Source: a virus
DNA: 34,867 nt
Direction: 5' to 3' (one strand)
Virus record (IMG/VR): IMGVR_UViG_3300037504_000246
Location: 1-34,867 of that record
Shown here piece by piece: positions 9,208 through 29,792 of the stretch (positions are counted from its first letter, which is position 1; the number at the start of each line of letters is the position of its first letter). Under the pieces are notes generated by a model. That model was not told where the DNA came from. It made no database searches and saw only the letters and a list, made by a program, of their open reading frames with translations. Made by a program: the position numbers and the translations under genes.

Positions 9208-9352
9208 ATACTTTGAAGGAATCAAACACTATTACATAGGGTGGCATACTTTTAGCCCATTTGAAAGTAAAGTGTTTGATAAACAATATGCAGAATATAA
9301 AGTTAATCAGTTAGGGGCAATGGTAGAATATGCAAACGATAACGCTACCTAA
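9191..9352 (+). CDS. 53-residue hypothetical protein
   Basis: MYYIVKYFEGIKHYYIGWHT starts a 53-residue protein that overlaps the genes on both sides (17 bases before, 23 bases into terL). It resembles the start of the small protein at 858. Confidence 0.5.
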   Translation: MYYIVKYFEGIKHYYIGWHTFSPFESKVFDKQYAEYKVNQLGAMVEYANDNAT

Positions 9353-10538
9353 GTTATACCCTTTGCAAAGTGAGATAAAAGGTAGCTTTAACAAATACCG
9401 CTTTGTAACGGTAAATGCAGCAAGAAGGGTTGGGAAGAGCCTATTAGGAACAGACCTAGTAATCACTAAAGCCTTAGATACTGGTTATGATACTGCGTAC
9501 TTCAGTATCAGTTATAAACAGCTAACATCAATGTATGATCGTGCTTGTACTATTTTAGAACCTATAGCCAGGTATGACAGACAGAATAAACGTATCCTGT
9601 TACCTAACGGGTCAACCATAACTTACTGGTCACTCGAAAACGAGAATACATCAGATAAAGTTAGAGGGCAAAGATATGCTTTTGTAGTCATAGATGAAGC
9701 GGCATATGTTAAAGCATTAAAAGACGTATTTAATAAAGTGATACGTCCCACATTGATTGATCTAAAAGGGCAAGCACTGTTTATCAGTACACCAAATGGA
9801 TATAATGACTTCTACCACCTATACCAGGAAGCAAAGCGTAACCCATACTTATGGCATAGCTTTAGAGCTACCACTTACGACAATCCTTTTATAGATAAAG
9901 ACGAACTAGACCAGCTAAAGGAAGCATTACCAGAAAGAGTATTCAGAACAGAGATATTAGCACACTTCCTAGAAAGTGATCAGGGAGTATTTACAAACTT
10001 GTCTGCATTGTTACAGCCTACAAGTAACCCTTCTGGTATCTGTGTATTTGGTATAGACCTTGCTAGATCAGGTGACAACACATCTATTACCGTTATGCAG
10101 GGTACCTCAGTGATTGATCTGCGAGTATACAAAGATATGAGTTTCGATAGGCAGATAGCTACTATCATTGAACTGTACCAGCGGTATAAACCCGAAGTTA
10201 TAGTCATTGAAGACAATGGCCTATCTGCTCCTATTGTGGAGAAGCTAACAGGTAGCAATCTACCTATAGAACCCTTCCATACGACTAATAGTAGTAAGAA
10301 GCAGATCATTGAAAACTTAGCTGTTGCTATCGAACAAGGGACTATATCTGTAGACAAGACGTTAGATCATAGTCAACAATTAGTTGATGAACTAGCGGTA
10401 TATGAAAGCAAGAAGTCTAGTTTAGGGGCTATAACATACAATGCCCCTGCTGGATACAATGATGATATGGTGATCAGTCTAGCACTGGCATATAAAGCCG
10501 TTAGACAAGACGATGTACCACTTGTAATATGGCAGTAG
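9330..10538 (+). CDS. terL: Terminase large subunit
   Basis: A 402-residue DNA-packaging motor. The ATPase half has a Walker A variant AARRVGKS (30-37), Walker B VVIDEA (119-124) and STPNG (153-157). The nuclease half shows GIDLARSGDN with D243, IVIEDNG with E294 and D295, and YNDDMVISLALAY with D378/D379: the RNase H-like metal sites. It pumps DNA into the prohead through the portal and cuts the concatemer. The length is normal to slightly short. Lysis genes rather than the portal gene follow, which is unusual. Confidence 0.92.
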   Translation: MQTITLPKLYPLQSEIKGSFNKYRFVTVNAARRVGKSLLGTDLVITKALDTGYDTAYFSISYKQLTSMYDRACTILEPIARYDRQNKRILLPNGSTITYWSLENENTSDKVRGQRYAFVVIDEAAYVKALKDVFNKVIRPTLIDLKGQALFISTPNGYNDFYHLYQEAKRNPYLWHSFRATTYDNPFIDKDELDQLKEALPERVFRTEILAHFLESDQGVFTNLSALLQPTSNPSGICVFGIDLARSGDNTSITVMQGTSVIDLRVYKDMSFDRQIATIIELYQRYKPEVIVIEDNGLSAPIVEKLTGSNLPIEPFHTTNSSKKQIIENLAVAIEQGTISVDKTLDHSQQLVDELAVYESKKSSLGAITYNAPAGYNDDMVISLALAYKAVRQDDVPLVIWQ

Positions 10539-10553
10539 AGAAGGAAGTTAAGA

Positions 10554-11306
10554 TTGAAGAATATTACCTACATAATGCCTACAGCTAATTGGAAGCAACC
10601 GTATATGCAAAGGGTTGAAGGTATCACTATACACTTTGCTGCGGGCCCACCTGTAGCAACACAGTATAACAATGAAGATCAGCTAATAGCTATCTTACAA
10701 AGCTATGCCCGTTATCATATAGCAAATATCCCTAACGATAGCATAGCATATACGTATGTTGTTGATAAATGGGGGAACCAGTATCAGACAAGGGATATAA
10801 GGCAGAGCTACCACACAGCTAACATATGGGGAAACCAACATACGTTAGGTATCCTTTGCCCGTTAGGGAGTTATGAAGAGCCTACAGAAGATCAGGTTAC
10901 TAGTTTATTTAACTTAGTTAATACGTTACGAGTGGAATACGGTATACCTGCAGATAATGTCGTAGGGCACCAGGAACTATCAAATACTCCTTGTCCTGGA
11001 AAACTTATGCCCTATGTCATAGAGTACAGAAATGGTACATACAAGCCTGTAGAACCTTCTGAACCAGAAGAAGATAAAGACTTTTTATCCGGGTGGTACC
11101 GGGTAGTGCATAATGGTAAAGCTACTATTAGAGAGGGAGCAAGTACAGATAGTCGGGTGATCCTAACACTACCATCTGATTATAGAGAATACATACACGC
11201 TAAAGTTAAAGGGCAAATGGTAGCAGGTAGTGACGTATGGTATCAGACACTATCAGACTATGGAAAAGGATATATACATTCCAGCGGAATATACAGAGAT
11301 GAATAA
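10554..11306 (+). CDS. Endolysin: N-acetylmuramoyl-L-alanine amidase with SH3-like tail
   Basis: A 250-residue amidase_2 enzyme. Zinc ligands are H27 (GITIHFAAG), H139 (VVGHQELS) and C147 (TPCPGK). A Pro/Glu-rich linker (165-176) leads to a bacterial SH3-like wall-binding domain (180-250, WYRVVHNGKATIREGAS). It cuts the link between peptide and glycan in the cell wall for lysis. TTG at 10554 with GAAGGAAG upstream is the best start; ATG 10575 is possible. The absence of a signal peptide fits release by the holin encoded next. Confidence 0.88.
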   Translation: MKNITYIMPTANWKQPYMQRVEGITIHFAAGPPVATQYNNEDQLIAILQSYARYHIANIPNDSIAYTYVVDKWGNQYQTRDIRQSYHTANIWGNQHTLGILCPLGSYEEPTEDQVTSLFNLVNTLRVEYGIPADNVVGHQELSNTPCPGKLMPYVIEYRNGTYKPVEPSEPEEDKDFLSGWYRVVHNGKATIREGASTDSRVILTLPSDYREYIHAKVKGQMVAGSDVWYQTLSDYGKGYIHSSGIYRDE

Positions 11307-11584
11307 TGGAATTTCTAGATATTGAATTCATTGCAGCGTTAGGGGAAGTTAGTTTCCCTTTAGCATTTTTAGTTATAAGTTATTTGGCACTACGAACACT
11401 AGCACCTATTTTTAAGAATAACTTTGACAGACAGGAAGATTTATTCGAGCGTATAGCGTTAACACAGGATCAAATAGCTGAAACACTTAGAGGTCAAGCT
11501 ATATTGCTACATACTTTAGAACAGAGAGTTACTAGAATTGAAAACCGTTTAGGCTCTAATACTCGCAGTACTGACAAAGGATAG
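11306..11584 (+). CDS. Holin-like protein (one membrane span plus coiled coil)
   Basis: A 92-residue protein with one hydrophobic span (residues about 13-34) followed by a charged helix with heptads (38-83), the layout of BhlA/UviB-type holins. Its start overlaps the endolysin stop by one base, supporting a joint lysis role. Holins open the membrane at the time of lysis. Confidence 0.7.
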   Translation: MEFLDIEFIAALGEVSFPLAFLVISYLALRTLAPIFKNNFDRQEDLFERIALTQDQIAETLRGQAILLHTLEQRVTRIENRLGSNTRSTDKG

Positions 11585-11587
11585 TCT

Positions 11588-13570
11588 ATGCCAGATAAAG
11601 ATGAATTGAATGAAGTATTTAGTAAATATAAAGCCACCGTAAATATGTCTGCTTCTGAACTAGAACGTTGGTCTGAGACAGAATGTAGTAAGAAAGCATC
11701 TCTAGACAGATCACATATAAAGCGTAACCTACGACTATTACGAAAGAAGAAAAGCGAGTGGACAGATAACGATATTAAAGATGCAAATAAGACGATTGGA
11801 TTTATAGAACGTATGAAGAACGGTGAACAGGGTGAGAAAGTAAGCGAAGAATGCCCATATAGTAAACGGGATATATCACTAAGAAACTGGGCATTCAACC
11901 CTGATAAAGGCAGCAAGTCTATGCACGTTAAGTTTATAAGTGAAGATGAAAAATATGTAAAGGTAGCAGGTTATGGTATTGTATTCGGTACCGTTGATCT
12001 TGTAGGGGATACCTTTAGCCCGGATACTGAACTAGGATTTAAGAGATCACCTGTGGGTATGCCTGTCTACTACTCGCATAATATGGAAACGGTAAAGGGT
12101 AACATTGGTCAAGTTACAGATTATAGCATTGATGACGTTGGGGTATGGTTTGAATTAGAGCTAGACAAATCTAACAAGTACCTGGAAGGTATCAGAAAGT
12201 TAGTAGCTAATAAACGACTTGGCTTAAGTACAGGGGCATTACCTCACACGTTGGAGAAAGATGATAAAGGTAACTTAAAAACCTGGATAGCAGGAGAGAT
12301 TAGTTTAACGGTAACTCCTGCCGAAAGTAAAACACTGGGAATATCGGAAGTTAAAGATTTAAGTGGAGAAAACAACAAAATGGCAGAAGATCAGAAGTAC
12401 ACAGCAAAGGATGTAGAAGAAGGGCACATTGTAGACTTGCAGGCTACACTTAAAGACTACAATGATAAAGTTGATCAACTCCTTGAAATGTGGCAGAACA
12501 CGAAAGATGTTAAGACGGGTAAAGTCGGAGGGGGTAGCAAAGAGAATGAAGCAACTTCTTTTGGTGGTTTTCTCAAAGCAGTAGCACAGAAAGATTACGA
12601 ACGTATCGAACAAGTTTACAATGAACATCCTGCTAATGCTATGAAAGACCTTAATACGCTTACTGGTACGGACGGGGGTTATCTGGTACCCCAGCAGTTT
12701 TTGAACCAGTTTATGGCTACCATTGAGCGTATGGAGATTGTACGTCCACGAGCAATGGTACAACCCATCCCATTCGGTAACATTGAAATTCCAGCTATTG
12801 ATTACAATCAGACGTGGGATGCTGGACACGACCCGCTGTTGGGTGGTCTTAAGATGTACTGGACAGCAGAAGGGGCAACCGATACACAGTCTGAACCTGA
12901 ATTCAGACAGATTGAACTACGCAGCAATGAAGCAACTACTAGTGTGCCTGTTTCTAATAAACTGCTAGACAATAATGCTATCGGCCTTGAGGCATTGCTT
13001 ATGCGTTTGTTTACTGCTGCTGCTGCATACACTGAAGATTATGCGTATATCCGTGGTGATGGTGTAGGTAAACCCTTAGGGGTACAGAATGCAGCCGCTA
13101 CTATTAGCGTTGATGTAACTGCTGCTGGCCCTACGGTAGCTGAACTTGCTTCTATGTATGTACGTCTGGACCCTGAATGTGTGGATACAGCGGTATGGCT
13201 TATCAACCCTCTGCTTTATGAAGATATTATGTCATTGAATGCAGATAATGATAGTGCTCTTACATTCTTGCCTGATATTAACGGACGTATTACTCCGATG
13301 CTGTTTGGTATGCCAATGTACCGAACTAAAGTATTGAGTAATAGTTATACTAATGCTGGTTTGATGCTAGTAGACTTTAACAAATATGTTATTGGGCAAG
13401 ATTTGCAACTTGAAATTGCAATGTCTGAACACGTAGCATTCCGTAAACGTCAGACGGTATGGCGTGCAACTATTCGTACTGATGGGCAACCATTGATGAA
13501 TGCTGCTGTACCTATTGGCCCAACGAGTGATGAAACGGTTAGCTTTGCTGTACAGTCTAGCACTGCGTAG
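11588..13570 (+). CDS. Prohead protease-major capsid protein fusion (HK97 fold)
   Basis: A 660-residue single reading frame. Residues 1-108 hold a conserved phage domain (RNLRLLRKKKSEWTDNDIK, SKRDISLRNWAFNP). Residues 112-252 are an S78 prohead protease with H164 (YYSHN) and S214 (GLSTGAL). Residues about 275-330 look like a helical delta/scaffold region, and from about 345 the HK97 major capsid protein follows (GTDGGYLVPQQF, IPFGNIEIPAID). M265 (12380) has GGAG 11 bases upstream, so capsid protein may also be made separately. Self-cleavage would free the capsid part. Normal phages encode protease and capsid as separate genes. Confidence 0.88.
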   Translation: MPDKDELNEVFSKYKATVNMSASELERWSETECSKKASLDRSHIKRNLRLLRKKKSEWTDNDIKDANKTIGFIERMKNGEQGEKVSEECPYSKRDISLRNWAFNPDKGSKSMHVKFISEDEKYVKVAGYGIVFGTVDLVGDTFSPDTELGFKRSPVGMPVYYSHNMETVKGNIGQVTDYSIDDVGVWFELELDKSNKYLEGIRKLVANKRLGLSTGALPHTLEKDDKGNLKTWIAGEISLTVTPAESKTLGISEVKDLSGENNKMAEDQKYTAKDVEEGHIVDLQATLKDYNDKVDQLLEMWQNTKDVKTGKVGGGSKENEATSFGGFLKAVAQKDYERIEQVYNEHPANAMKDLNTLTGTDGGYLVPQQFLNQFMATIERMEIVRPRAMVQPIPFGNIEIPAIDYNQTWDAGHDPLLGGLKMYWTAEGATDTQSEPEFRQIELRSNEATTSVPVSNKLLDNNAIGLEALLMRLFTAAAAYTEDYAYIRGDGVGKPLGVQNAAATISVDVTAAGPTVAELASMYVRLDPECVDTAVWLINPLLYEDIMSLNADNDSALTFLPDINGRITPMLFGMPMYRTKVLSNSYTNAGLMLVDFNKYVIGQDLQLEIAMSEHVAFRKRQTVWRATIRTDGQPLMNAAVPIGPTSDETVSFAVQSSTA

Positions 13571-13591
13571 TTTATAGGGAGATAACACATA

Positions 13592-14017
13592 ATGAATTAT
13601 TACTTGACTGAAAACTTTAGTATCGCGGCTACTGTTGACCCTCAATTGCTCAATAACAATAGCGTTACGAGTGATTGGGTAGATATGTCTTTGTATCGAA
13701 AAGTATCTTTTATCCTTAACGTAGGGGCAACTGATATTACTGTAGACGCTAAATTGCAGGAAGCTACCGATAGTAGTGGTACATCAGCACAGGATATTAC
13801 AGGCTTTTCAATTACTCAGCTAACCGCTACTGACGACAATGAGCAAGTAGTCATTGAAATTGATGCTACGGAAGTATCAGAGGATTATACACACGTTGCT
13901 CTCGTTGTCACTATTGGTAATGGTAGTACGGGTGCTCAAATATCTGCTGTTGGACTTGCTTATGAAGCACGGTATGTAGCAGTAGATCACCTTGCTAGTG
14001 TAACAGAAGTGGTATAG
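13592..14017 (+). CDS. Structural protein, probable capsid decoration
   Basis: A 141-residue beta-rich protein (SDWVDMSLYRKVSFILNVGA; DITVDAKLQEATDSSGT) of a type often found straight after capsid genes. It probably sits on the capsid. AGGGAGA precedes the ATG. Confidence 0.6.
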   Translation: MNYYLTENFSIAATVDPQLLNNNSVTSDWVDMSLYRKVSFILNVGATDITVDAKLQEATDSSGTSAQDITGFSITQLTATDDNEQVVIEIDATEVSEDYTHVALVVTIGNGSTGAQISAVGLAYEARYVAVDHLASVTEVV

Positions 14018-14026
14018 ACAACTTGT

Positions 14027-14061
14027 ATAGAGCGTACTATAAACAAGGTAGTACGCTCTAT
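14027..14061 (+). other. Strong RNA hairpin ahead of the LamG gene
   Basis: A 12-bp perfect stem (14027-14038 with 14050-14061), but no T tract follows, so mRNA processing or partial attenuation is likelier than full termination. Confidence 0.6.
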
Positions 14062-14078
14062 ATGTGAAGGAGTTTGCT

Positions 14079-15527
14079 ATGCCTTATACACAAGCAGTTT
14101 ACACTGCGCAAGCAGCACTATACAAGCAAGCACTGCAATGGTACTGGCTACAGCAACAAAGGTTTAAAGGGGGACAGTCAGATTTACTCAACAATCTTGT
14201 AGTCTATTGGAAAATGGATGAAACAAGCGGAACACGTTTTGACAGTACTGCAAATAGTATCAACCTAACAGCCATAAACACTGTTGGCAGTGGTACAGGT
14301 ATTATTAATAATGCCGCTAAACTTATACGACCCAATAACGAACTTCTGCGCCACCCAAATGACACAGTACTGCAAATGGGTGACATTGATTTTACTATCG
14401 CTTTCTGGTTCAAGGCTACTTCTTTGCCCGACCATATGGGACTAGTGTCCAAGTATGACAGCAGTGCAGAGGAATACCTGGTTGATTGGTTAGACAGTAC
14501 CGAAGTTCTACGTTTTGTTGTCTGGGACGGTTCTAGCTTTGGAGTTACAACATTATCATTTCCCGCTACACAGACAGGTGATTGGTATTTTGTAGTAGCC
14601 TGGCACGATGCGACAAACGATACGATCAATCTACAGCTATTTGATGGCGCTACAAACCCTACCTCCACAACAGCACATAGCACAGGGGTTGCAGTAGATA
14701 CAGCAGTATTTGAAGTTGGTCGGTTCCTATCTAATAATACATATTGCTTTAATGGGTTAATAGATGAAGTGGGCATATGGAAACGTGTACTTACTTCCGC
14801 GGAACGTGTAGAATTATATGATAACGGGCTAGGCCTATCATATCCCTTTGATACCCTTCCTACAAGTAGTACATTGCTGAATGATCTAAATGCTTATTGG
14901 AACTTGGATGAAACGAGTGGGACACGTTTCGATAAAACATCTAATAGCAATGATCTAACCGATAATAATACCGTTGGTAGTGCTACAGGTAAAATCAGTA
15001 ATGCAGGTGACTTTGTTGCAGCAAATAGCGAATATTTGAGTGTAGCAAATAACGCTTCATTGCAAACAGGGGACATAGACTTTACTATAGCCTTTTGGGT
15101 ATATTTTGATAGTTTAACTGCTAATATCATAGCATCAAAACGTGATGGTAGTGGGAGCGAATATCAAATATATATGGGAGGTTCTAGCCCGTATAGAATA
15201 AAATTCGCAGTATTCAACCCCTCGTTATCTGTTGTAGAAGATACAAGCCTAGGCACACCGTCCTTGTCTACCTGGTACTTCATTGTTTGTTGGTATGATA
15301 GCGCAGCGAATACGTTAAATATACAATCAAACAATGGAACCGTAGTAACAGCAACAGGTATATCACCCCCTTCTACTACTACTGCAAGATTTAACATAGG
15401 GGAAGCAGTTGGTTTCTATATGAATGGACGTATAGATGAATTTGGCTTTTGGAAAAGAATACTAACATCGAGCGAAAGAACAGAATTATATAATAGTGGG
15501 TCTGGTTTAACCTACCCGTTTGTATAG
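14079..15527 (+). CDS. Tandem LamG (concanavalin A-like) virion protein
   Basis: A 482-residue protein with two LamG-like lectin domains: about 36-255 (YWKMDETSGTRFDST ... GLIDEVGIWKRVLTSAE) and 265-482 (YWNLDETSGTRFDKT ... GRIDEFGFWKRILTSSE). They are tandem duplicates about 680 bases apart and still share DNA runs. LamG folds bind glycans, so this is the best candidate for host or mucus binding on the particle surface. AGGAG selects ATG 14079. The 5' end contains a copy of the 23-nt double-hairpin element. Confidence 0.8.
   Translation: MPYTQAVYTAQAALYKQALQWYWLQQQRFKGGQSDLLNNLVVYWKMDETSGTRFDSTANSINLTAINTVGSGTGIINNAAKLIRPNNELLRHPNDTVLQMGDIDFTIAFWFKATSLPDHMGLVSKYDSSAEEYLVDWLDSTEVLRFVVWDGSSFGVTTLSFPATQTGDWYFVVAWHDATNDTINLQLFDGATNPTSTTAHSTGVAVDTAVFEVGRFLSNNTYCFNGLIDEVGIWKRVLTSAERVELYDNGLGLSYPFDTLPTSSTLLNDLNAYWNLDETSGTRFDKTSNSNDLTDNNTVGSATGKISNAGDFVAANSEYLSVANNASLQTGDIDFTIAFWVYFDSLTANIIASKRDGSGSEYQIYMGGSSPYRIKFAVFNPSLSVVEDTSLGTPSLSTWYFIVCWYDSAANTLNIQSNNGTVVTATGISPPSTTTARFNIGEAVGFYMNGRIDEFGFWKRILTSSERTELYNSGSGLTYPFV
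14094..14116 (-). repeat. 23-nt double-hairpin element, copy 2
   Basis: On the minus strand: GCTGC-TTGC-GCAGT-GTAA-ACTGC. Identical to 30877-30899; differs from 4373-4395 at three positions that keep both pairings. It lies inside LamG codons 6-13. Confidence 0.75.
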
Positions 15528-15543
15528 ATAATGGAGAAACATA

Positions 15544-15846
15544 ATGGCTACAGAAAACATTGTAACTAATGGCAATCCTTTAGCAGCAGATGTAAGCACA
15601 GCACGTAAACAATTTGTACAAGCGATTGATACATTTCGGGTAAAAGGTAAAAACCTTGCAGCAGCAGCAGATGACGCTACACGTAATAATATGGCAGGGG
15701 TATCTAATGGTGCTAGTATGAGGGATATCCTTGTAGGTATTGCAGAGCTTGCTGATACTGATATCTCTGACGATCAGGTATATGATCGTGCTTGGCTTGC
15801 TACACGGGTTAACTATATCAAAACGCTGATCAAAGAATACTTTTAA
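15544..15846 (+). CDS. Hypothetical structural protein
   Basis: A 100-residue, mostly helical, Ala-rich protein between the LamG and portal genes. GGAG lies upstream of the ATG. Not recognised; by position a minor head component. Confidence 0.55.
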   Translation: MATENIVTNGNPLAADVSTARKQFVQAIDTFRVKGKNLAAAADDATRNNMAGVSNGASMRDILVGIAELADTDISDDQVYDRAWLATRVNYIKTLIKEYF

Positions 15847-15855
15847 GGGATTATT

Positions 15856-17085
15856 ATGCCATTTAGACTATTTGACGGTAAGAAAACATATACAGATGAG
15901 GACTATTACTGGCGGTCTGTATCGTCAAATAGTCTCTCTGACACATATAAACTCTATACATCAGTACCATATCTATACCGGGCTATAGACATTAGAGCAA
16001 AGACTATAGCGGCTATGCCATACAGAGTAGAACGTAATGGTACTGATGTATCTGATAATGCTATCTATGATCCTATCATATCGAATATACACAAGCTCAT
16101 ATACCGAACTGAAGCGGCTATATGTTTGTATGGTAGAGCATACTGGACAAAAGATATAGAGAATAGAATACCTGTACCAGTATGGTTACTGCCTACATTG
16201 GTACAGCCTTTCTATCAGTCTGGTAAAGGACTTGTACGCTATGATTATTGGGCTGGTATAGATAGTGTATATAGTGGTCGGCATATACAATTCCAACCAG
16301 ATGAATTAGTATCTTTTGAACTTCCGTCTGTAGGATCAGAAGGATGGTATGGTGTAGCTCCCGCTTATGTTGCTGCTAATAGTGCTGCTACCCTTTATGG
16401 TATAGATAGGTTTGCATCAGGGTATTTTGATAGGGGAGCCATTAAAGCTACTGTGTTAAGTGTAGAAGGTAACCCCACCCAAAAGCATAAAGACGAACTA
16501 ACAAACTGGTTTCAAAGTATGCTATCAGGTATACGCAATGCGTGGACTACGGCTGTATTGTCTAGTAAGGTTGAACCTATTGTTATAGGTGCTGGCATAG
16601 AAGAGCTAAAGGATAATGATATAACCGAACGCAGAGAGAAACATATTTGTGCAGCGTTAGGTATACCTCACAGCCTTGTAAGTGCTGATGCTGCAAACTA
16701 TGCTACATCTTTGTCAGATCGTATAAACTTCTATACGCACACAATCATACCTGAAACAGAATTCATATTTGAACAGATCAATATGCAATTGCTGGCACCA
16801 TATGGTTTAGAATTTATCCCTGAGCCTAAGAAGTTAGAAGTATACCAGCAACAGGAACTAGAGAAAGCGCAAGCACTAGCAACATTGATTAAAGGTAAAG
16901 ATATTTTGCTACAAAATGAAGCACGTGCTATGTTAGATTATGAACCTATAGAAGAAGAGATTATAGCGGAATCTGTAACGATACCCGAACCAGAAGAGGT
17001 ACTTCGTACGAAAGTACCAGATAATAAATCTATACGTTTGCCTTACCCATCTAAGTTTCTGAAAGCAATTAAGAACTTGCACTAG
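15856..17085 (+). CDS. Portal protein (HK97 family)
   Basis: A 409-residue protein. The N-terminal PYLYRAIDIRAKTIAAMPYR (35-54), the central YGVAPAYVAANSAATLYGID and the stem region ALGIPHSLVSADAANYATS are typical of HK97-type portals. Twelve copies form the ring through which DNA enters and leaves. Its place after the capsid gene, instead of between terL and protease, is unusual. A long hairpin terminator follows. Confidence 0.88.
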   Translation: MPFRLFDGKKTYTDEDYYWRSVSSNSLSDTYKLYTSVPYLYRAIDIRAKTIAAMPYRVERNGTDVSDNAIYDPIISNIHKLIYRTEAAICLYGRAYWTKDIENRIPVPVWLLPTLVQPFYQSGKGLVRYDYWAGIDSVYSGRHIQFQPDELVSFELPSVGSEGWYGVAPAYVAANSAATLYGIDRFASGYFDRGAIKATVLSVEGNPTQKHKDELTNWFQSMLSGIRNAWTTAVLSSKVEPIVIGAGIEELKDNDITERREKHICAALGIPHSLVSADAANYATSLSDRINFYTHTIIPETEFIFEQINMQLLAPYGLEFIPEPKKLEVYQQQELEKAQALATLIKGKDILLQNEARAMLDYEPIEEEIIAESVTIPEPEEVLRTKVPDNKSIRLPYPSKFLKAIKNLH

Positions 17086-17124
17086 TCAGTATATAGCCGT
17101 AGGTATTATTTTAAGAAATTATTA

Positions 17125-17188
17125 AATACCTGATTATAACGCTTAGTACACAATATACACTAAGTGATTGTAATCAGGTATTTTATTA
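17125..17188 (+). terminator. Long bipartite hairpin terminator after the portal gene
   Basis: A 12-bp outer stem (17125-17136 with 17171-17182) and an inner CTTAGT/ACTAAG stem, ending in TTTTATTA. Confidence 0.8.
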
Positions 17189-17220
17189 TGCACTCACACA
17201 TAAAGCGAGAGAGGCAATAA

Positions 17221-17697
17221 ATGGAAGATGAATACACATTGCAGATAGATAATGCACTGGCAATGTTAGCAGAGAAGATAGCAGAAGTTAATCAGCGTAT
17301 AGATAGCCTGTCAACGGTTGATCTGCCAACAGATGTTATCGAGATGTATGCAAAGGCTAAAGTGGTTGATCGATATGTAGCAATGGGAGTACCTGTTAAT
17401 GCTGCACTTGCTATAGTTGGTATAGAAGTAGATACAGATATGCTAGCATCTAACACAGTAGATCAATCAGAAGTAATTGAAGGTTATCAAACTACTATGC
17501 GATCACTACAGTCTAGCATTGAAGCTCTGAAGTCTGTTTTTGATTATGCGAAGATGTATGATGATAAAGAAGATGATAGCGATAAAGCAATGACAGAAGA
17601 GGAAGAGGAAGGGGTATCAGATGAAACAGAAGAAACCAGCGAAACCAGTGAAACCAGTGAAGATGATACAGACGAAGAAGATAGCAAAGAAGATTGA
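17221..17697 (+). CDS. Acidic-tailed head protein, overlaps the next gene
   Basis: A 158-residue protein: a helical N-terminal half, then an extremely acidic tail (residues about 118-158, with ETSETSETSEDD repeats). GAGAGAGGC precedes the ATG. By position, a portal-associated or scaffold-like protein. The last 77 bases are read in another frame by the next gene. Confidence 0.65.
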   Translation: MEDEYTLQIDNALAMLAEKIAEVNQRIDSLSTVDLPTDVIEMYAKAKVVDRYVAMGVPVNAALAIVGIEVDTDMLASNTVDQSEVIEGYQTTMRSLQSSIEALKSVFDYAKMYDDKEDDSDKAMTEEEEEGVSDETEETSETSETSEDDTDEEDSKED

Positions 17698-18112
17698 TGA
17701 TATATCGGGTAACCACGCTCATAAATCTATAAAGCTATCAGACCTAGACAAGTATGAAAAGCAGATGTATGCCACCATACAACCCATTTTTGCTAACGGT
17801 ACTCTTAACGATTTACAGAAACCTTTACTCGATACGTATTACCAGATCATAGCTACATATGTATCAGATAATGTGGGTGATGAACAATTCGAGGTTGATG
17901 TACCCTGGTATGATCTATACATTGAAGTGCTTAACCCCTTTGCTGATAGCTTTGTACCTGATCTAATAGCTTTGTTAAAAGAGAATGATGAACCATTGAC
18001 TAAAGAGCGAGCATTGTCAATTACGGTAACTGAAACCACACGGTTAACCGCTATGTGTGCTACGGGTATGATGATGCTTTACAATGGTCTGATTGATGAA
18101 ATATGGGGGTAA
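17621..18112 (+). CDS. Minor head protein, N-terminal part (MuF-like region)
   Basis: A 163-residue protein whose first 26 residues are very basic (KQKKPAKPVKPVK) because they use the +1 frame of the acidic tail of the gene before. GGAAGGGG lies about 7 bases before the ATG. The helical remainder ends in TETTRLTAMCATGMMMLYNG, like the middle of MuF/SPP1 gp7-type minor head proteins. The C-terminal MuF piece is the next gene, so the usual single protein seems split. Confidence 0.6.
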   Translation: MKQKKPAKPVKPVKMIQTKKIAKKIDDISGNHAHKSIKLSDLDKYEKQMYATIQPIFANGTLNDLQKPLLDTYYQIIATYVSDNVGDEQFEVDVPWYDLYIEVLNPFADSFVPDLIALLKENDEPLTKERALSITVTETTRLTAMCATGMMMLYNGLIDEIWG

Positions 18113-18115
18113 TAG

Positions 18116-18433
18116 ATGTTAGGTGCTATAGCAAGAGGTATAGGTGCTATTGCTAGGGGTATTGCTAATATAGCCCGTAGAATAGGCGGTAGGACAAAAA
18201 CTAGACTAAGGGAACAGGAAGAGAAACCCGAAAGGCGTACATATAGACTAAACGCTATCCGGGATAGTAAAACGTGTAAGCTATGCCGGGATAAGGACGG
18301 TACTACTTTTGTTGTATCTTCAGATGATAGTGTAGAAGATATAGCTGCTCGTATGTCAAGCGTAGTACCTCCGATCCATATAAATTGCCGCTGCACTTTA
18401 GAGAAGGTAGGTATCTTTAGGGGAGTGATATAA
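18116..18433 (+). CDS. MuF-like minor head protein, C-terminal domain
   Basis: A 105-residue protein. The N-terminus is a Gly/Ala/Arg amphipathic helix (IARGIGAIARGIANIARRIG). The rest has the MuF signature RDSKTCKLCRDKDGTTF and PPIHINCRCTLEKV, with Cys pairs that likely bind metal. It follows the previous gene after three bases, so the two may act as one minor head protein. Its amphipathic start could contact membranes or DNA. Confidence 0.7.
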   Translation: MLGAIARGIGAIARGIANIARRIGGRTKTRLREQEEKPERRTYRLNAIRDSKTCKLCRDKDGTTFVVSSDDSVEDIAARMSSVVPPIHINCRCTLEKVGIFRGVI

Positions 18434-18991
18434 ATGGCAGTACGTACAGGTATGGTATCCCTTGTCAATACTTTAGAGTTATTGGTATATGATACGTCAA
18501 ACAATGATCTTACAGAAGATCAGTACCAGGATATACTAGACCTAAATGGGCAAAGGGTTATCCGGCATAAGCTAACTAAATTAGATAAAGATGGGGAATA
18601 CTGGCGGGCTAGTACAGGTTACTGGGAAGGTGATACTAATGCCCCTACTATTAAAGATGAAAATAATAATACCCTAACACATACCGCTGATCTTACCAAT
18701 GGGGTATTTACACTGACTACACCAGATAATAGTATCTGTGCTTACCTGTGGGATGGGTATTATTATGACATTTATAGCGCTGCATATCTAACGTGTAACA
18801 TCTTAATTGCTAAGATAAAGAACGAATATTCTATGACTGTATCAGAAGGTACCTTTAGTCGTTTTGATCGTATCGAAACTTTGGAGAAACTAGCAGAGAT
18901 GTACCATAAGATGATACAGACACACAGCATTGATATGAGCGATTATGATGACTATAGGAGTATCTATGAGCGTCATCCTATCGGATACTGA
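18434..18991 (+). CDS. Head connector-like protein
   Basis: A 185-residue protein. The C-terminal helical part (SAAYLTCNILIAKIKNEYSM; FDRIETLEKLAEMYHKMIQ) fits adaptor proteins that sit under the portal (gp6/gp15 type). It comes right after the MuF gene, the usual place. The identification rests on position and helix pattern. Confidence 0.55.
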   Translation: MAVRTGMVSLVNTLELLVYDTSNNDLTEDQYQDILDLNGQRVIRHKLTKLDKDGEYWRASTGYWEGDTNAPTIKDENNNTLTHTADLTNGVFTLTTPDNSICAYLWDGYYYDIYSAAYLTCNILIAKIKNEYSMTVSEGTFSRFDRIETLEKLAEMYHKMIQTHSIDMSDYDDYRSIYERHPIGY

Positions 18992-19466
18992 ATTACAATC
19001 TATATATAGCGTAGTGCTTGCCTCATACCCAACAGAAGCTAAACTCTATACTCCTGCTACGAGTAACCCTGATTTTAATACTGCTAATCCAAAGCAGGAT
19101 ACTTTTTCTTGCCGTGTGGAGTATATAGGTACACAAAGGGAATTGAAAGAAAGTGCAGATCAATACATCCTGGTTCAGACTTGGAAAGCCTTTGTACCTA
19201 AATATGTTAATCCTGGTGTACCTACATCAGCTAATAACCCGGCTACAGGAGATTGGTTTCTCGCTTTAGGGTATCGGTTTAGGGTTGAAAGTGTAGAAAG
19301 CCCATATACCCATCAGTTTAGCAAAGAAGTTAACTTAAGATGGGAGAGTGCAGATACAACGAACTATGGTACATATACGTTTGATGGTCAGGCACCCTTT
19401 GATTTATTGTTAACTGAAAGTTCACTCGATATATTGACAGAAGATAGTAATCAAATAGCCCTATAA
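18966..19466 (+). CDS. Head closure/stopper-like protein
   Basis: A 166-residue protein in the usual place of a head-closure (Hc1-like) protein. It is beta-rich, with DTFSCRVEYIGTQRELKESA and FLALGYRFRVESVESPYTH. AGGAG selects ATG 18966 rather than 18945. If real, the particle closes its portal even though no tail gene follows. Confidence 0.5.
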   Translation: MSVILSDTELQSIYSVVLASYPTEAKLYTPATSNPDFNTANPKQDTFSCRVEYIGTQRELKESADQYILVQTWKAFVPKYVNPGVPTSANNPATGDWFLALGYRFRVESVESPYTHQFSKEVNLRWESADTTNYGTYTFDGQAPFDLLLTESSLDILTEDSNQIAL

Positions 19467-19479
19467 AGAGAGAAACATA

Positions 19480-19977
19480 ATGCCTAAAATATCTGAATTA
19501 ACTGATCTTGCATCCTTAGCTGATGCTGATGATACCGTAATAGTAGACGATACTGATGATACCACAAAGCGTACTGGTATGGATGCTATTGCATCTTATA
19601 TGGCTGTTTCTAGTATATTTATAAGCGGTGTCAGTACCGTTGCTGATGATAGCTTTGAACTAATTGCACAAGACTTAAGTGCAACTTCTGGTACTGTAAC
19701 CCTAACATCACCTGATAGTACCTCTGTACTTGCTTATTATAACCTTACAAACCCTGATACAAGCGGAGGTACTACAGTAGAATATGATAATACAGGTAAG
19801 TACTTACTTGTCATATATAATAATAGTGCTTATAATATTACTATAGAAGACCCATCCGGGGGTGCTGCGCTACTACAACCAGGTGTAGGTGGTGTAACTA
19901 ACTTTGTGCTAGCGTCAAATGAAGTATTTTTTGGGTTTATAGCCTTTAATGCTTGTTACGGTATATATGTGGGGTAA
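19480..19977 (+). CDS. Short appendage/fibre-like protein 1
   Basis: A 165-residue, Thr/Ser/Asp-rich protein. The N-terminus (MPKISELTDLASLADADDTV, then a TTKRT segment) is the 'KISEL...DD...TKK' start seen on many phage fibre and appendage proteins. A C-terminal beta domain follows. It resembles the next protein, so the pair looks duplicated. It probably forms short fibres on the particle. Confidence 0.55.
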   Translation: MPKISELTDLASLADADDTVIVDDTDDTTKRTGMDAIASYMAVSSIFISGVSTVADDSFELIAQDLSATSGTVTLTSPDSTSVLAYYNLTNPDTSGGTTVEYDNTGKYLLVIYNNSAYNITIEDPSGGAALLQPGVGGVTNFVLASNEVFFGFIAFNACYGIYVG

Positions 19978-19979
19978 CT

Positions 19980-20510
19980 ATGCCAGATAGAATTATAGAC
20001 TTTGACGATCTTACTTCTTTAGAAGGTACTGACTACGGTGTAATTGTAGATAGCAGTACCGAAACTACGAAGAAATTTACTATAGATAGCTTAACAACCT
20101 ATGTACTAAATAATAATATAGTTAAAAACAATATAAAAGGTACTTTAAAGGACTTATGGTTATTTTTTCCAGTTACGCTTACCTCTGCAAGTGCTATAGA
20201 TGTATATTTCAATTACATAACTCTTAATGGTACATCTACTAGAATTGAAATAGATATATTAAACGCTACTTTAGAGGCTTATGATGGTGCTACTTTAGTT
20301 AATACAAAAGCAATAGATAGTGTTGCACAAATTATCGCACTGCGAAGCGCTAATTCCAGTAGTTTAGACCAAGACATTGACATTATCAATTCAGGGGAGT
20401 ACAGTGATGGTACTACATCTATAACCCTAACAGATGAAGATAACCTTTGTATCTACCTTGATCGTACTAATAACAAAGCTATCATACTAACTAAAGTACT
20501 CACACCATAG
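19980..20510 (+). CDS. Short appendage/fibre-like protein 2
   Basis: A 176-residue protein with the same start pattern (MPDRIIDFDDLTSLEGTDYG ... TTKKFTIDSLTTYV). GGGG precedes ATG 19980, which is preferred over a TTG at 19953 inside the previous gene. The last gene of the rightward head region. Confidence 0.55.
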   Translation: MPDRIIDFDDLTSLEGTDYGVIVDSSTETTKKFTIDSLTTYVLNNNIVKNNIKGTLKDLWLFFPVTLTSASAIDVYFNYITLNGTSTRIEIDILNATLEAYDGATLVNTKAIDSVAQIIALRSANSSSLDQDIDIINSGEYSDGTTSITLTDEDNLCIYLDRTNNKAIILTKVLTP

Positions 20511-20904: not shown

Positions 20905-20960
20905 AGTATAAACCCTTTGACACCACTTGTCAATACCCCTTTGATAGCAATTTACTATCA
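20905..20960 (-). promoter_or_regulatory. Minus-strand promoter with upstream box
   Basis: TTGACA (20933-20928), 17-bp spacer, TATACT (20910-20905), then AGTTAAGTAA. Upstream, GATAGTAAATTGCTATC lies inside the end of the ATPase gene and matches the box at other promoters. Confidence 0.8.
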
Positions 20961-21712
20961 TAAGTATACACTCCCTGTATACCACTACCATACACCACAA
21001 GCAATACTTCGCTATGCTTTAACTTACCAGTATCAGGTATATCAGTTATACCCGTAGACATTCTACCATCCTTTACCCTCTGCCTTAATGCTGCAAATGA
21101 TACAAGGCTATCTCTAATATCGGTACCCCCTACCGATTTACTACTCCAATGTTGCCCTATAAGCCATATGTAACATTTATACTTTCTACCTTGCTGTACA
21201 TAGTCGAGTACCTTAGCTTTAAGTGTCGGCTTTTGCCTTAACAAAGATGTGTACTCATCTATGACAGTTATTCCCTCTCTCATCTCTGATAGATGCTGGT
21301 CTATGTCATCTATATCGCTATATATCTTAACGGGTATACCTTCCTTCTCTATCCTTACCCCTAAACTCTGCTGGTCAGGGTAATGTATATCTAATACATA
21401 TATGGGGATACCCGTTACTTGTTTCAGTAAGTACGTTGCATATGTACTTTTACCTGATCCTGGCATACCAGATATACCCATAGATGATAGCTGCTGCAGA
21501 GGTACCTGTACATTGTTTGCTAAACGTAGCATATCAGCCTGTATAGGCCTTTCTTTCTGTACCTGTACAAAGTATCGTCTATAAACATACAATGCCCTTA
21601 ACGTGGCATACACAGCCACTATAGCCAGTGTTTGCCATACCCCTACAAGTACCACTGATAGAGTAACCGAAAGAGCCAGTAAAAGAACCTTTTCATTATG
21701 TTGTAGCTCCAT
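20930..21712 (-). CDS. Membrane-anchored FtsK/HerA-like ATPase
   Basis: About 260 residues. Two hydrophobic spans (residues about 14-47 counted from the upstream ATG at 21727) are followed by a RecA-like ATPase: Walker A GMPGSGKS (87-94), Walker B ITVIDEY (153-159), and IWLIGQHWSSKSVGG with an arginine-rich C-terminal segment. Such pumps move DNA or protein across or along membranes (FtsK, conjugation coupling, Zot, A32-type packaging). TerL is already present for packaging, so this may serve DNA transfer or segregation. GGGG selects the ATG at 21712; 21727 is possible. It overlaps the small membrane gene upstream. Confidence 0.75.
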   Translation of the reverse strand: MELQHNEKVLLLALSVTLSVVLVGVWQTLAIVAVYATLRALYVYRRYFVQVQKERPIQADMLRLANNVQVPLQQLSSMGISGMPGSGKSTYATYLLKQVTGIPIYVLDIHYPDQQSLGVRIEKEGIPVKIYSDIDDIDQHLSEMREGITVIDEYTSLLRQKPTLKAKVLDYVQQGRKYKCYIWLIGQHWSSKSVGGTDIRDSLVSFAALRQRVKDGRMSTGITDIPDTGKLKHSEVLLVVYGSGIQGVYTYDSKLLSKGY

Positions 21713-21780
21713 TGTAATAGTCCCCATTCATAAAGCAATAGGGAGAATAGCAACAGAGCTATGATTAATCCTTCACTCAT
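21643..21780 (-). CDS. 45-residue membrane peptide
   Basis: MSEGLIIALLLFSLLLYEWG starts a one-span peptide. ATGA overlaps the previous stop, with GGGAGG 8 bases before the ATG, a stronger ribosome site than that of the overlapping ATPase. It would be coupled to both neighbours. Confidence 0.5.
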   Translation of the reverse strand: MSEGLIIALLLFSLLLYEWGLLQWSYNIMKRFFYWLFRLLYQWYL

Positions 21781-22199
21781 TGCATATGACCTCCCCTTAC
21801 TCTATGTGATTTACCTACATTAAACAGTATTTCAGCCAGTACCGATATACCAACAGCAGCAAACCATTGTGCTAAATTGTTAAACGTTACAACGTCTATT
21901 TGTTGCTGTATCTGTGTAGGCATTATAGCGTGTAAATTTCCAAGTTTGCCCGATAACCCCCTATAGTTAAGCCACACATCTAAACTAATAAACACTGTAG
22001 CAAATAAGAGTATGATCTTCTGTTGTGTTTGTGGTAATGTTCGGTATCTTTCGTTTACTATCAGTGATTGCCCGAAGGATAACACCACCTGCACTATAAA
22101 TGCTGTGATTAGTGGATTACTCGCACCCATAAAGTTCATAGCGTCATACGTAAACCATAACCCTAACAACCATAGTGTGATAGCTACCCCATAGAACAT
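21777..22199 (-). CDS. Four-span membrane protein
   Basis: A 140-residue protein with about four hydrophobic spans (MFYGVAITLWLLGLWFTYDA; then ITAFIVQVVLSF; IILLFATVFISLDVWL; AAVGISVLAEILF). GAGGAG precedes the ATG. It lies between the recombinase-like gene and the membrane ATPase, with overlapping starts and stops, so these four form one unit. Not recognised. Confidence 0.6.
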   Translation of the reverse strand: MFYGVAITLWLLGLWFTYDAMNFMGASNPLITAFIVQVVLSFGQSLIVNERYRTLPQTQQKIILLFATVFISLDVWLNYRGLSGKLGNLHAIMPTQIQQQIDVVTFNNLAQWFAAVGISVLAEILFNVGKSHRVRGGHMQ

Positions 22200-22528: not shown

Positions 22529-22821
22529 TAGTACCTACCTTCCTTGATAAACTCTAGTAGCAGTTCCTTAAATTCTGTATAGTCCTTCCGTTGGTATGCA
22601 ATGTGTACATCTGCAGATAACTCCACTAAATCGAAACGAGTATTCTGCATATGACATATCTCTTTTTCTGCCTCTAAGAACCACTTATAGAGCCATACCG
22701 AACTAACAAGTTCATACGGTATACGCTGCGATCTTAGTAGCTCTAAACGTTCCGCTTTACTGATTACTTTATCCCAAGTAGTACCCTCGTTGATATACCC
22801 ACTAAATGTGTTCAAATACAT
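22528..22821 (-). CDS. Hypothetical protein
   Basis: A 97-residue, mostly helical protein (NTFSGYINEGTTWDKVISKA). It overlaps the exonuclease gene by 20 bases and the next gene by one. Not recognised. Confidence 0.6.
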   Translation of the reverse strand: MYLNTFSGYINEGTTWDKVISKAERLELLRSQRIPYELVSSVWLYKWFLEAEKEICHMQNTRFDLVELSADVHIAYQRKDYTEFKELLLEFIKEGRY

Positions 22822-23545
22822 ATCGGTTGTATTCTCCTTCTTTTACTAAATTGTATACATCTTCCCTATCTAATACCATTCCTTGCAAAGCATAGGGGTT
22901 GGGAAGTATGGCAGCATAGAGATTATCTAGTAATGCTGTACCATACAAGTTATATGCTACTTCCCAAGGGTTAACCGCTTCATAGATCGTAAGACTTTCC
23001 TGTATTGCCTTCCTACCTTTTGGTATTAATCGCGGTATATTGTCGCTCTTATCACCATATAAACATAGTGTTAGCAAATAACGATCTGGTGTCATCTCTA
23101 AATGGTGCATAGACTTAGGCAACCCTGCATAGAGGTTATCTCTTAGTGGGGTACCGTCTAGTTTCTCAATGTTGCACCATTCAGGTAGTTGGCTCAAATC
23201 TTTATCATTTGTTACTATTATAAAGCCTTGTAATGCTTTAATAGCTAGTATGTCATCTGCTTCTAAAAGGGGGTTATAGACGGTTTGAAATATGGCATTA
23301 TCATTTACATCACGCCATATTTCTTGGGCCTTTTTACGTGCTTCTATCTGGTCTAGTGTTAGCTGATCTACAGCCCTATTCTGTTTGTACCAGGGAAATA
23401 ACTCTTTACGTATAGATGAGAAGCCCTCAGTTACTAGCACACAGCCTGCATACTTACTATACAAAGCACGATCTTTCACCCATTGTTCATAACCACCTTT
23501 ATAAACATATTGGTATACAAGGTATCCACAATCAATATACTTCAT
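22802..23545 (-). CDS. 5'-3' exonuclease (PolA/FEN family)
   Basis: A 247-residue protein with the acidic metal-site motifs EADDILA, VTNDKDLSQL and LYGDKSDNIPRL, in family order. It removes RNA primers and flaps during replication. The start overlaps the polymerase stop (ATGA), the usual two-gene split of the PolA functions. AAAGGGA precedes the ATG. Confidence 0.85.
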   Translation of the reverse strand: MKYIDCGYLVYQYVYKGGYEQWVKDRALYSKYAGCVLVTEGFSSIRKELFPWYKQNRAVDQLTLDQIEARKKAQEIWRDVNDNAIFQTVYNPLLEADDILAIKALQGFIIVTNDKDLSQLPEWCNIEKLDGTPLRDNLYAGLPKSMHHLEMTPDRYLLTLCLYGDKSDNIPRLIPKGRKAIQESLTIYEAVNPWEVAYNLYGTALLDNLYAAILPNPYALQGMVLDREDVYNLVKEGEYNRYVFEHI

Positions 23546-25626
23546 TCTTTATCCCTTTCGCTTGTCAACTTAATTACTTCTTCACTCTCATCTTTCATCG
23601 TTCGGTTATAACTCAATTTACCTTCTACAGCTATAAGGTTCCACCCCGGCAATTTATTAAGATGCGTATCATTTAGATACTGGAATGCTTCCTTGCAAAT
23701 ATCTTCTATACGATCTTCTTCACCTGGATACACGTCTATGAATACACTATCGTGTACCTGCGCAATGAAACAGCTATTCATATTCTCTAGTTCCCTATCA
23801 ATATAACAGCATAGTTCGTAGCATATGAATGCCGACAAACCTTGTATAGGCGTATTCATTGCAGCACGTTTAACCCTACCTTTCCAGTACACGGTACCAT
23901 CTACCATACTGCTAACATCTCTGATAAATCCGTAATGTGCTACGATCTTATGTGTCCGATATGCCCGTGCTATTTGCTCATCTTGCCATTGTGCTAAATG
24001 AGAAAATGTATTTTTAACATTTAGTACGGCTTTCTCTAATACATCTACACTAGCACCTGTTGACTGTGCAATACCTTTAGCTGAACCACCATATAAAATT
24101 CCAGCAAAGCTAATAACTTTAGCTATCTGCCTTTGTTCTTTGCTTACTTCATCGTAAGGTACTCCGAAAGCATTTGATGCAACAGTTCTATGATAATCAG
24201 AATTTTGCAATGCTTCTGACATTGTGGTATCCCCACTAACAAGTACAGCGCACCGTAACTCTGATTGTGCTAGATCAAACTGTGCAATGCTACCACCTTC
24301 ATATCTACTAACAAATACCCCTTTAACCTCTGTTGGTACTTGCTGCAGGTTAGGGTCTTTACAACTAGACCTTCCAGTATCAGTCCCCCATACCAACATA
24401 GACGGATGTATCGTACTTGTACCATCCGCCGTTAGTTCTACATACTTATCATAAAACGTAGACAGTAGCTTTGTAGCTTCTCTATACTTTAGCAGTGTAT
24501 CCACTACTTGCCAGTCCCTATGATCTTCTAACACTTTACTTGCTACACTGTAGTTTCCCCCTTGTGTCAGTTCTGTCAATGGGATACCCATATCAGTTAG
24601 AAATTCAGATACTTCCTTGTTAGATTGCCAATTTATAAAACCAAATTCTTCTAACCGATCCCATAACTGTTCAGTCTCTACCTGTAGTTTATACTGTTCC
24701 GTTAGCAGGGTATCTCTATTAACTGCTATACCCCTTTGGTGTGCCCTTTGAAACACTATAGCTGTCTGCATTGCCAGGGTATCAATGGGTCGGATACCCT
24801 TACGTACTAATCGCTGATACAATGCCCTGGTAGCTACAATATCAGCAACCGCATATACAGTATCAAAACTATGTGCAGCCTGTGCATAAGCATCAGGGTT
24901 GTTTACATCAGTATACATAGTTGTTAGATGTTTCAATCCCAAAGGCTTAAGACCACGGTTATGAGCTAAGATCATTGTATCGTATATCTCAGGGATGTCT
25001 AACCAATCACAACCTGTGTGTTTTGATAATGCTGGCAGATCAAACGATATGAGATTGTGACCTATCAGTTTATCGCCTTTTCTTAACAACAAGTAATCAT
25101 ATAGATCACTGAGTAATTTAGACGATGGGCTAGCAATATAATACACATTGCTGTTATCCCCTATCTGTATAGATGTAATCGTATTAGCTTCTAGGCTGTC
25201 TGTCTCTATATCAAGGTATATAGCACCCTCTAACGTTGGTAGCTCAGTTACTTCGGAGTATTCTGGTACTTCATACTGCAATATCTTAGCTCGCTCTATA
25301 TCCCTATCAGCATACTGTTCATAGACAGGTACCACTATGCTACCATCGGTCATACTGAATAGCCCACCGTGACATTTTCTAATGTCTGTGTACCTCTCCT
25401 GTAACAATACCTTACTGGCTACAGTACCAATAGCCAATATACGATCAGGGTTATACTCTTCTATCTCTGTCTCTAGTTCGGCATAAAACCTTTTAGTGTT
25501 TGGTACCGTCTTTGCTTGCAGATCAATGACAATACATTCTATGAACTGTTCCCTGATACTATCAATCACCCCATTACTAAATACTATCATATACGTTGTA
25601 TCATTACCATACTCTATGATGTTCAT
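23542..25626 (-). CDS. Family A DNA polymerase with 3'-5' exonuclease and N-terminal UDG-like segment
   Basis: A 694-residue replicative polymerase. Residues 1-125 look like a uracil-DNA-glycosylase-fold segment (RILAIGTVASKVLLQERY, then a CHGGLF turn and VVPVYE). The exonuclease begins at YLDIETDS (D139, E141). Polymerase motifs are A (SIAQFDLAQSELRC), B (RQIAKVISFAGILYGG, with Lys and Phe of the O helix) and C (QVHDSVFID, H625, D626). The O-helix Phe is the usual bacterial-type residue. AGAAAGG precedes the ATG. Confidence 0.9.
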   Translation of the reverse strand: MNIIEYGNDTTYMIVFSNGVIDSIREQFIECIVIDLQAKTVPNTKRFYAELETEIEEYNPDRILAIGTVASKVLLQERYTDIRKCHGGLFSMTDGSIVVPVYEQYADRDIERAKILQYEVPEYSEVTELPTLEGAIYLDIETDSLEANTITSIQIGDNSNVYYIASPSSKLLSDLYDYLLLRKGDKLIGHNLISFDLPALSKHTGCDWLDIPEIYDTMILAHNRGLKPLGLKHLTTMYTDVNNPDAYAQAAHSFDTVYAVADIVATRALYQRLVRKGIRPIDTLAMQTAIVFQRAHQRGIAVNRDTLLTEQYKLQVETEQLWDRLEEFGFINWQSNKEVSEFLTDMGIPLTELTQGGNYSVASKVLEDHRDWQVVDTLLKYREATKLLSTFYDKYVELTADGTSTIHPSMLVWGTDTGRSSCKDPNLQQVPTEVKGVFVSRYEGGSIAQFDLAQSELRCAVLVSGDTTMSEALQNSDYHRTVASNAFGVPYDEVSKEQRQIAKVISFAGILYGGSAKGIAQSTGASVDVLEKAVLNVKNTFSHLAQWQDEQIARAYRTHKIVAHYGFIRDVSSMVDGTVYWKGRVKRAAMNTPIQGLSAFICYELCCYIDRELENMNSCFIAQVHDSVFIDVYPGEEDRIEDICKEAFQYLNDTHLNKLPGWNLIAVEGKLSYNRTMKDESEEVIKLTSERDKE

Positions 25627-25638
25627 TCTATTACCTTT

Positions 25639-26235: not shown

Positions 26236-26438
26236 TATTTACCCTCTTTCACATATCTCTCACCCTTGTTAATAGCACCCTTCTCTGTCTTATAAAAATA
26301 CTGTGTTATGAAACTACCATTAGTATACAGCACAACCCGGTATGATCTACTGTTTATCGGTACCACTTTGTAACTTCTGTTTAGCGGTACTGATAAATTC
26401 TTCTGCTGATAACACCGTTCTTTGTCTGTTTTCTTCAT
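26235..26438 (-). CDS. Small basic hypothetical protein
   Basis: A 67-residue, Lys/Arg-rich protein (MKKTDKERCYQQKNLSVPLN). AGGGAG before the ATG at 26438 makes this the start over an upstream TTG. It overlaps the primase 3' end by about 92 bases. Confidence 0.6.
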   Translation of the reverse strand: MKKTDKERCYQQKNLSVPLNRSYKVVPINSRSYRVVLYTNGSFITQYFYKTEKGAINKGERYVKEGK

Positions 26439-27382: not shown

Positions 27383-27393
27383 TATATACTCCT

Positions 27394-28473: not shown

Positions 28474-28482
28474 AGGTACCTC

Positions 28483-29313: not shown

Positions 29314-29372
29314 TACGTTACTCCTCTAAAGACTTATTCAGATTACATCCGATATACACATAGCATAATACT

Positions 29373-29403
29373 AGAGACTATAGCCGATGTGACTATAGTC
29401 TCT
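29373..29403. terminator. Hairpin, probable terminator
   Basis: An 11-bp perfect stem (29373-29383 with 29393-29403) between the 29416 gene and the PP-loop gene; the T tail on the minus strand is weak. Confidence 0.55.
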
Positions 29404-29415
29404 TTATATCCCTCA

Positions 29416-29785: not shown

Positions 29786-29792
29786 TATCAAT

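Follow-up and report, generated by a model that had tools for sequence, protein, structure and literature searches.

The window, by which we mean the whole of record IMGVR_UViG_3300037504_000246 at its full length of 34,867 bp, is probably the genome of a lytic-type HK97-lineage virus of bacteria that multiplies autonomously, has lost the tail of its ancestors and is known from its genes alone. Its late operon runs on the plus strand from the gene for the large terminase subunit (TerL) at 9330 to position 20510 and is followed by a replication block on the minus strand. By homology, this operon provides an HK97 head, proteolytic maturation of that head, a portal and a terminase, and neither in the operon nor elsewhere in the window were recognizable tail genes found. 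Genes without an established name are designated here by their start coordinate, as with 18434, 18945, 19480 and 19953 at the end of the operon.

An exact terminal direct repeat of 127 bp converts the window into a circle of about 34,740 bp. The open reading frame (ORF) starting at 34344 continues over the join into positions 1-359 and yields a single protein of 251 amino acids that matches Pfam DpdA almost from end to end (E = 2e-59). Since a full-length DpdA homologue spans the join, it supports closure independently of the repeat, and the closed genome that an earlier, sequence-only reading of this DNA had described is thereby confirmed. The DpdA homologue (34344-34867 plus 1-359) points to 7-deazaguanine DNA modification, and the genome additionally contains a DNA methyltransferase gene at 25639.

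Absence of tail genes from the window

A profile of the capsid protein retrieved 75 further loci in viral contigs, many of them with complete siphovirus-type late operons. In these tailed relatives, the operon consists of genes for TerL, portal-MuF, protease, capsid, decoration protein, sometimes a glycosyltransferase-like protein, adaptor, terminator, tube, tape measure and distal tail proteins. Their adaptor matches the PHROG head-tail adaptor family (E = 9.9e-15) and the tape measure in locus L097 matches Pfam TMP_2 with 1.1e-6, just under the curated cut-off; the names tube and terminator were assigned by position and pattern. Profiles built gene by gene from these loci were run against all ORFs of the window. 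TerL (9e-31), portal-MuF (7e-101), protease (1e-57), capsid (2.5e-64) and decoration protein (3e-14) were readily detected, and the adaptor, terminator, tube, tape-measure and distal-tail profiles gave no credible match to any window ORF (best E values 0.003-0.01). The match of the tube profile at E = 0.003 was rejected as an antisense shadow ORF (2540-2683) within gene 2142-2777, and that of one tape-measure profile at E = 0.011 was likewise discarded, as it fell on gene 2142-2777 itself, whose product of 211 amino acids is hydrophobic in its N-terminal half and ends in a helix-turn-helix. Among the 26 loci outside the window lineage in which at least 5 kb are visible past the capsid gene, 24 had a tube match and 25 a tape-measure match, counts that express consistency because the profiles derive from the same loci.

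When eight late protein families of the window were compared profile to profile with fifteen from the tailed relatives, the probabilities stayed at or below 2.1%, except for the decoration protein as control at 98%. In scans of the window proteins against PHROGs, Pfam and NCBIfam, no tail family was matched significantly; tail families were reached by the holin-like protein at 0.18 and the LamG protein at 0.13. A protein of 117 amino acids encoded outside the late operon (33915-34268) weakly matched a PHROG tail assembly chaperone (E = 0.026), probably by chance, as about one such match is expected among the roughly 40 proteins scanned. Every ORF of at least 250 amino acids in the circle has a non-tail function or lies outside the late operon, which leaves no room in this operon for a tape measure of the usual size. 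Only 2.1 kb follow the MuF gene in the late operon, and all late proteins encoded after the portal have at most 185 amino acids. The claims of the sequence-only reading that tail genes are missing and that no unassigned gene is large enough for a tape measure were thus borne out by family scans, relative-derived profiles, profile-profile comparison and the survey of long ORFs.

Inheritance of the tail-less gene order

Three close relatives of the window were found in two metagenomes, namely G001 (36.0 kb), G002 (12 kb) and G003 (24 kb). G001 is about 75-100 codons (about 0.2-0.3 kb) short of closure, the missing part belonging to a single fibre gene. The late operons of G001 and G003 end like that of the window, with MuF, adaptor, stopper-like protein, two anchor-motif proteins and a convergent ATPase gene, and the G002 contig stops inside the stopper-like gene. 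A portal scan additionally revealed G010, a second closed genome of 28,597 bp with a terminal repeat of 97 bp. Its proteins are 36% (capsid and portal), 34% (TerL) and 40% (DNA polymerase) identical to those of the window, and its layout is the same, ending in appendage proteins. It encodes a homologue of the adaptor-like protein (28% identity, E = 2.8e-18), an appendage anchor that is 51% identical over 35 residues, a possible, marginal stopper-like protein (E = 0.044) and also a fibre-like protein of 374 amino acids. Scanning of the G010 proteins identified no tail family beyond tail-labelled matches to short pieces of this fibre-like protein. The adaptor-like protein 18434 marks the tailless lineage, as a scan of viral contigs matched that lineage only.

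In the portal tree, the window lineage and G010 form one group (support 91/77) within a larger set (97/95) that includes L126, which has tube and tape-measure genes, and wider branches include tailed phages. In the capsid tree, the same tailed relatives fall outside the set containing G010, the window lineage, L132 and G011. With a tailless group nested among tailed phages, loss of an ancestral tail is the simplest reading of their history, and a single loss appears likely. The tailless or nearly tailless HK97 particle that the sequence-only reading had listed as one option gains from this pattern, in which the absence recurs in the closed genome G010 and in near relatives, nested within tailed kin.

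Four GC-rich relatives (L128, L129, L130 and L139) have portals that are about 42% identical. L128, L130 and L139 carry distal-tail-like genes after the head genes and no tube or tape-measure gene in fragments of 8-9 kb, whereas L129 covers mainly the head part. Judged from their gene content, L128, L130 and L139 may represent intermediate tail reduction.

Neck and appendage proteins and a possible mode of infection

The four plus-strand genes at the end of the late operon encode two neck-like proteins and two appendage proteins. Gene 18434 (18434..18991) encodes a putative head-completion adaptor with a helical C-terminal pattern, and 18945 (18945..19466) a stopper-like protein, that is, a candidate head-closure protein named for its conserved position. 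The two short appendage proteins mentioned in the sequence-only reading were recovered as 19480 (19480..19977), with a conserved N-terminal anchor motif and a variable C-terminal beta domain, and 19953 (19953..20510), which has an N-terminus of the same kind. None of the four had a significant family match in the PHROGs, Pfam and NCBIfam scans, and no phage genome or solved structure was matched when the adaptor-like and stopper-like proteins were searched directly by sequence. A part of the structure check for tail folds that the sequence-only reading had suggested was carried out, and 19480 gave the one fold with a signal. Its model, of low confidence (predicted local distance difference test score, pLDDT, 51), resembles a Pseudomonas phage capsid spike, tailspikes and receptor-binding head domains, and not tubes or nozzles. 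In G002, a LamG domain (7.9e-17) is fused to the N-terminus of the stopper-like homologue, and the adaptor begins with a domain resembling fibre proteins (Pfam gp9/10 at 0.011, below its cut-off). Binding-type domains on neck proteins fit a vertex that is exposed to the host, and the LamG-stopper fusion suggests that the portal vertex itself may bind the host.

Taken further, these data would describe a free-living bacterial HK97 lineage that lost its tail secondarily and infects by the bare portal vertex, with adaptor and stopper rings and lectin and spike proteins in place of the tail; we see an even chance that this more specific proposal is correct. In the explanation that we prefer, homology shows a head built as usual from the protease-capsid fusion, portal and MuF, with packaging by TerL. 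After packaging, an adaptor ring and a stopper-like ring would shut the portal channel, as suggested by gene position and conservation, and the short appendages would be the only addition below the stopper-like ring. Host binding may fall to the LamG lectin and to the appendage proteins with the anchor motif, on the head surface, at the portal vertex or at both, and the DNA would then exit straight through the channel of portal, adaptor and stopper. Lysis would be achieved by the virus's own amidase and holin. In SPP1 and Staphylococcus phage 812, stopper gating loops can retain DNA in tailless heads (PMC12886913), which by analogy makes a tailless head a plausible end product.

Several observations weigh against a tailless virus. 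No particle has been seen for the window genome. The portal tree supports the group moderately and gives G010 a long branch, and the capsid tree unites G010 with the window lineage only if L132 and G011, two fragments of unknown tail status, are included. Several small late proteins lack an assignment, and 18434 is called an adaptor from position and pattern alone. The AlphaFold model of 18945 has a pLDDT of 34, which leaves the stopper fold unconfirmed and the stopper assignment of the sequence-only reading unproven.

Alternative explanations

The virus could instead have a minimal short tail, a novel knob or nozzle beyond the reach of profiles that is built from the stopper-like protein, the appendage proteins and the small late proteins without assignment. 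The lack of significant family matches for 18434, 18945, 19480 and 19953 and the retention of the first two across the lineage agree with this, and the distal-tail-like genes in L128, L130 and L139 would allow for stepwise reduction. However, the short-tailed phages HTVC010P and Skadi-4 have tail genes of about 194 and 740-855 amino acids and several kb of internal virion genes, compared to the limit of 185 amino acids for post-portal proteins of the window, and an anchor with a variable C-terminus looks fibre-like rather than ring-like. We therefore regard an unrecognized short tail as unlikely.

Even less probable, in our estimate, is a satellite-like element that produces heads and lysis proteins by itself but acquires its tails from a co-infecting tailed phage, in the manner of capsid-forming phage-inducible chromosomal islands (PICIs). 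A complete head and neck without a tail would suit such a lifestyle, since the tail of a helper could readily dock onto a stopper. Yet the window encodes polymerase, primase, helicase, single-stranded DNA-binding protein (SSB), ribonucleotide reductase, endolysin and a holin-like protein, most of which are also found in G010, and no integrase was found in the window beyond a resolvase fragment of 114 amino acids. The additional binding-type domains on both neck proteins of G002 would also be odd if a tail were to cover them. The satellite option of the sequence-only reading is accordingly disfavoured by the replication and lysis genes in both closed genomes and by the lack of an integrase. Metagenome assemblies sometimes close wrongly, and the window could in principle stem from a defective or degenerate phage, or its assembly could have skipped a tail module. 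The same tail-less order with intact frames is nevertheless seen in two independent circles, both closed, and in two more long contigs, and the genes on either side of the place where a tail would be expected are conserved, so that we consider an artefact or a defective genome very improbable. A self-sufficient virus that has lost its tail remains our preferred explanation.

Comparison with known viruses

Tailed siphovirus-type relatives such as IMGVR 3300046777_002295 (41.8 kb) share homologous TerL, portal-MuF, protease, capsid and decoration proteins with the window, and a glycosyltransferase-like gene in the head operon is common to them, G001 and L012. In contrast to the window, they possess adaptor, terminator, tube, tape-measure and distal tail genes. 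In the window, the adaptor belongs to another family, the order of the head genes is rearranged and MuF is split and separate from the portal, to which it is fused in the tailed relatives. The short-tailed pelagiphages HTVC010P and Skadi (34.9 kb) are similar in genome size and have a distantly related TerL (27%), but they have annotated tail and large internal virion genes that the window lacks. Neither the internal virion proteins nor the large nozzle or tail tubular protein of podoviruses was found among the window's short post-portal proteins.

Capsid-forming PICIs resemble the window in having their own capsid, portal and terminase and no tail, whereas the window carries complete sets for replication and lysis, lacks a recognized integrase and is about twice as large. 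The Streptomyces satellite phages Mulch and Flayer have head genes in a reduced genome, lack key genes for replication and are helper-dependent (PMC10690885). The window presents the reverse situation, with replication genes present and the tail absent. The pyrovirus genus was considered as a similarly reduced phage and dismissed, since its paper gives tail-type genes in one member. Herpesviruses and mirusviruses likewise combine an HK97-fold capsid with the absence of a phage tail, but they have eukaryotic hosts, whereas the lysis genes of the window are directed at peptidoglycan and tailed phages are among its close kin. The amidase endolysin and the phage kinship indicate a bacterial host. 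Of two scans of bacterial and archaeal genomes for a host, the first found nothing and the second only capsid matches in one Chloroflexaceae and one Patescibacteria assembly, both too distant to name a host. No integrated copy was found in the bacterial genomes scanned.

The capsid of the window belongs to the HK97-fold family and is not a single or double jelly-roll protein as in the tailless phages of the Varidnaviria. By descent, as judged from its HK97 capsid, portal and terminase, the window is a member of the Caudoviricetes without the feature that gave them their name, the tail. The tail is regarded as the defining organ of this class. We know of no HK97 virus of bacteria that is both naturally tailless and self-sufficient, and none is described in the open-licence papers that we searched, a set that leaves out preprints and most subscription journals. 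If our interpretation is correct, the lineage would show with how few parts a portal-vertex virus can locate a host, retain its DNA and release it into the cell, and would constitute a bacterial parallel to herpesviruses. Genomes filed as incomplete or defective for want of tail genes may then be real viruses.

Head and lysis genes

The full set of head genes reported by the sequence-only reading, with TerL, protease-capsid, portal and MuF, was matched by PHROGs and Pfam. All genes of this section lie on the plus strand. TerL (9330..10538) matches PHROG_2 (E = 4.7e-35) and is followed by an N-acetylmuramoyl-L-alanine amidase endolysin with an SH3 domain (10554..11306; Pfam Amidase_2, 3.6e-14) and a presumed holin, a small membrane protein with an N-terminal hydrophobic stretch (11306..11584) whose position between endolysin and capsid is kept in G001, G002, G003 and G010. 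The major capsid protein (11588..13570) is a fusion in which the S78 prohead protease forms the N-terminal part of the HK97-fold protein (PHROG_10, 2.3e-42; Pfam Phage_capsid, 1.2e-39; Peptidase_S78, 2.3e-6). The following gene (13592..14017) encodes a capsid decoration protein of 141 amino acids, homologous to the post-capsid gene product of the tailed relatives in the searches described above (hhalign for the profile-profile comparison). Across relatives, the type of decoration protein changes in step with the C-terminal half of the capsid protein, which identifies the 13592 product as a head part; together with the family match this excluded it as a tail tube. In L002 (12260-15355) and L006 (9883-11972), the C-terminal half of the capsid protein and the decoration protein appear to have been swapped jointly by recombination between relatives.

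Between the decoration and portal genes, and thus within the head operon, lies the gene for a double LamG lectin protein (14064..15527), which varies between relatives and contains two LamG domains (Pfam Laminin_G_3, 1.5e-32); it is likely a glycan-binding appendage. A conserved protein of 100 amino acids (15544..15846), found also in G001, G002, G003 and L012, precedes the portal protein (15856..17085; PHROG_12, 7.1e-39; Pfam Phage_portal, 9.7e-34). A protein of 158 amino acids with an acidic tail (17221..17697) weakly matches the portal-MuF profile (E = 0.006). The MuF protein expected from the sequence-only reading is present, though not as one gene, since this minor head protein is split into an N-terminal part (17621..18112; portal-MuF profile, E = 0.001) and a C-terminal MuF domain (18116..18433; Pfam Phage_Mu_F, 7.3e-11). 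Methyltransferase-like and glycosyltransferase-like genes are inserted in the head operons of relatives (L002:14268-14840 and 15438-16178; L012:5084-5653 and 6423-7166) and possibly modify the capsid surface.

Replication block and other genes

A membrane-anchored FtsK/HerA-like P-loop ATPase (20930..21727, minus strand) is encoded convergently to the late operon. It occurs in the window lineage, G010 and G011 (further coordinates L144:1920-2675 and L162:8992-10160, the latter on the minus strand), and was found in no tailed relative examined, including three long tailed contigs (36-42 kb) that were searched whole. The adjoining gene (21777..22199, minus strand) encodes, according to its sequence, a membrane protein with multiple transmembrane segments and has a similar neighbour in G011. 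Further along the minus strand lie genes for a 5'-3' exonuclease, a family A DNA polymerase and the DNA methyltransferase (22802..26235), with homologues in G010, and for the primase, a DnaB-type helicase, a PAPS reductase-like protein and SSB (26347..30338). The window also encodes ribonucleotide reductase, MazG and an HNH endonuclease, and G010 has most of the replication, nucleotide and lysis set. The ribonucleotide reductase gene is uninterrupted in G001, whereas it is split by about 0.2 kb at the same site in the window (5218-5439) and in G003 (L006:3569-3780). This insert looks like a small group I intron, with a match to Rfam RF00028 in G003 only (20 bits, below threshold).

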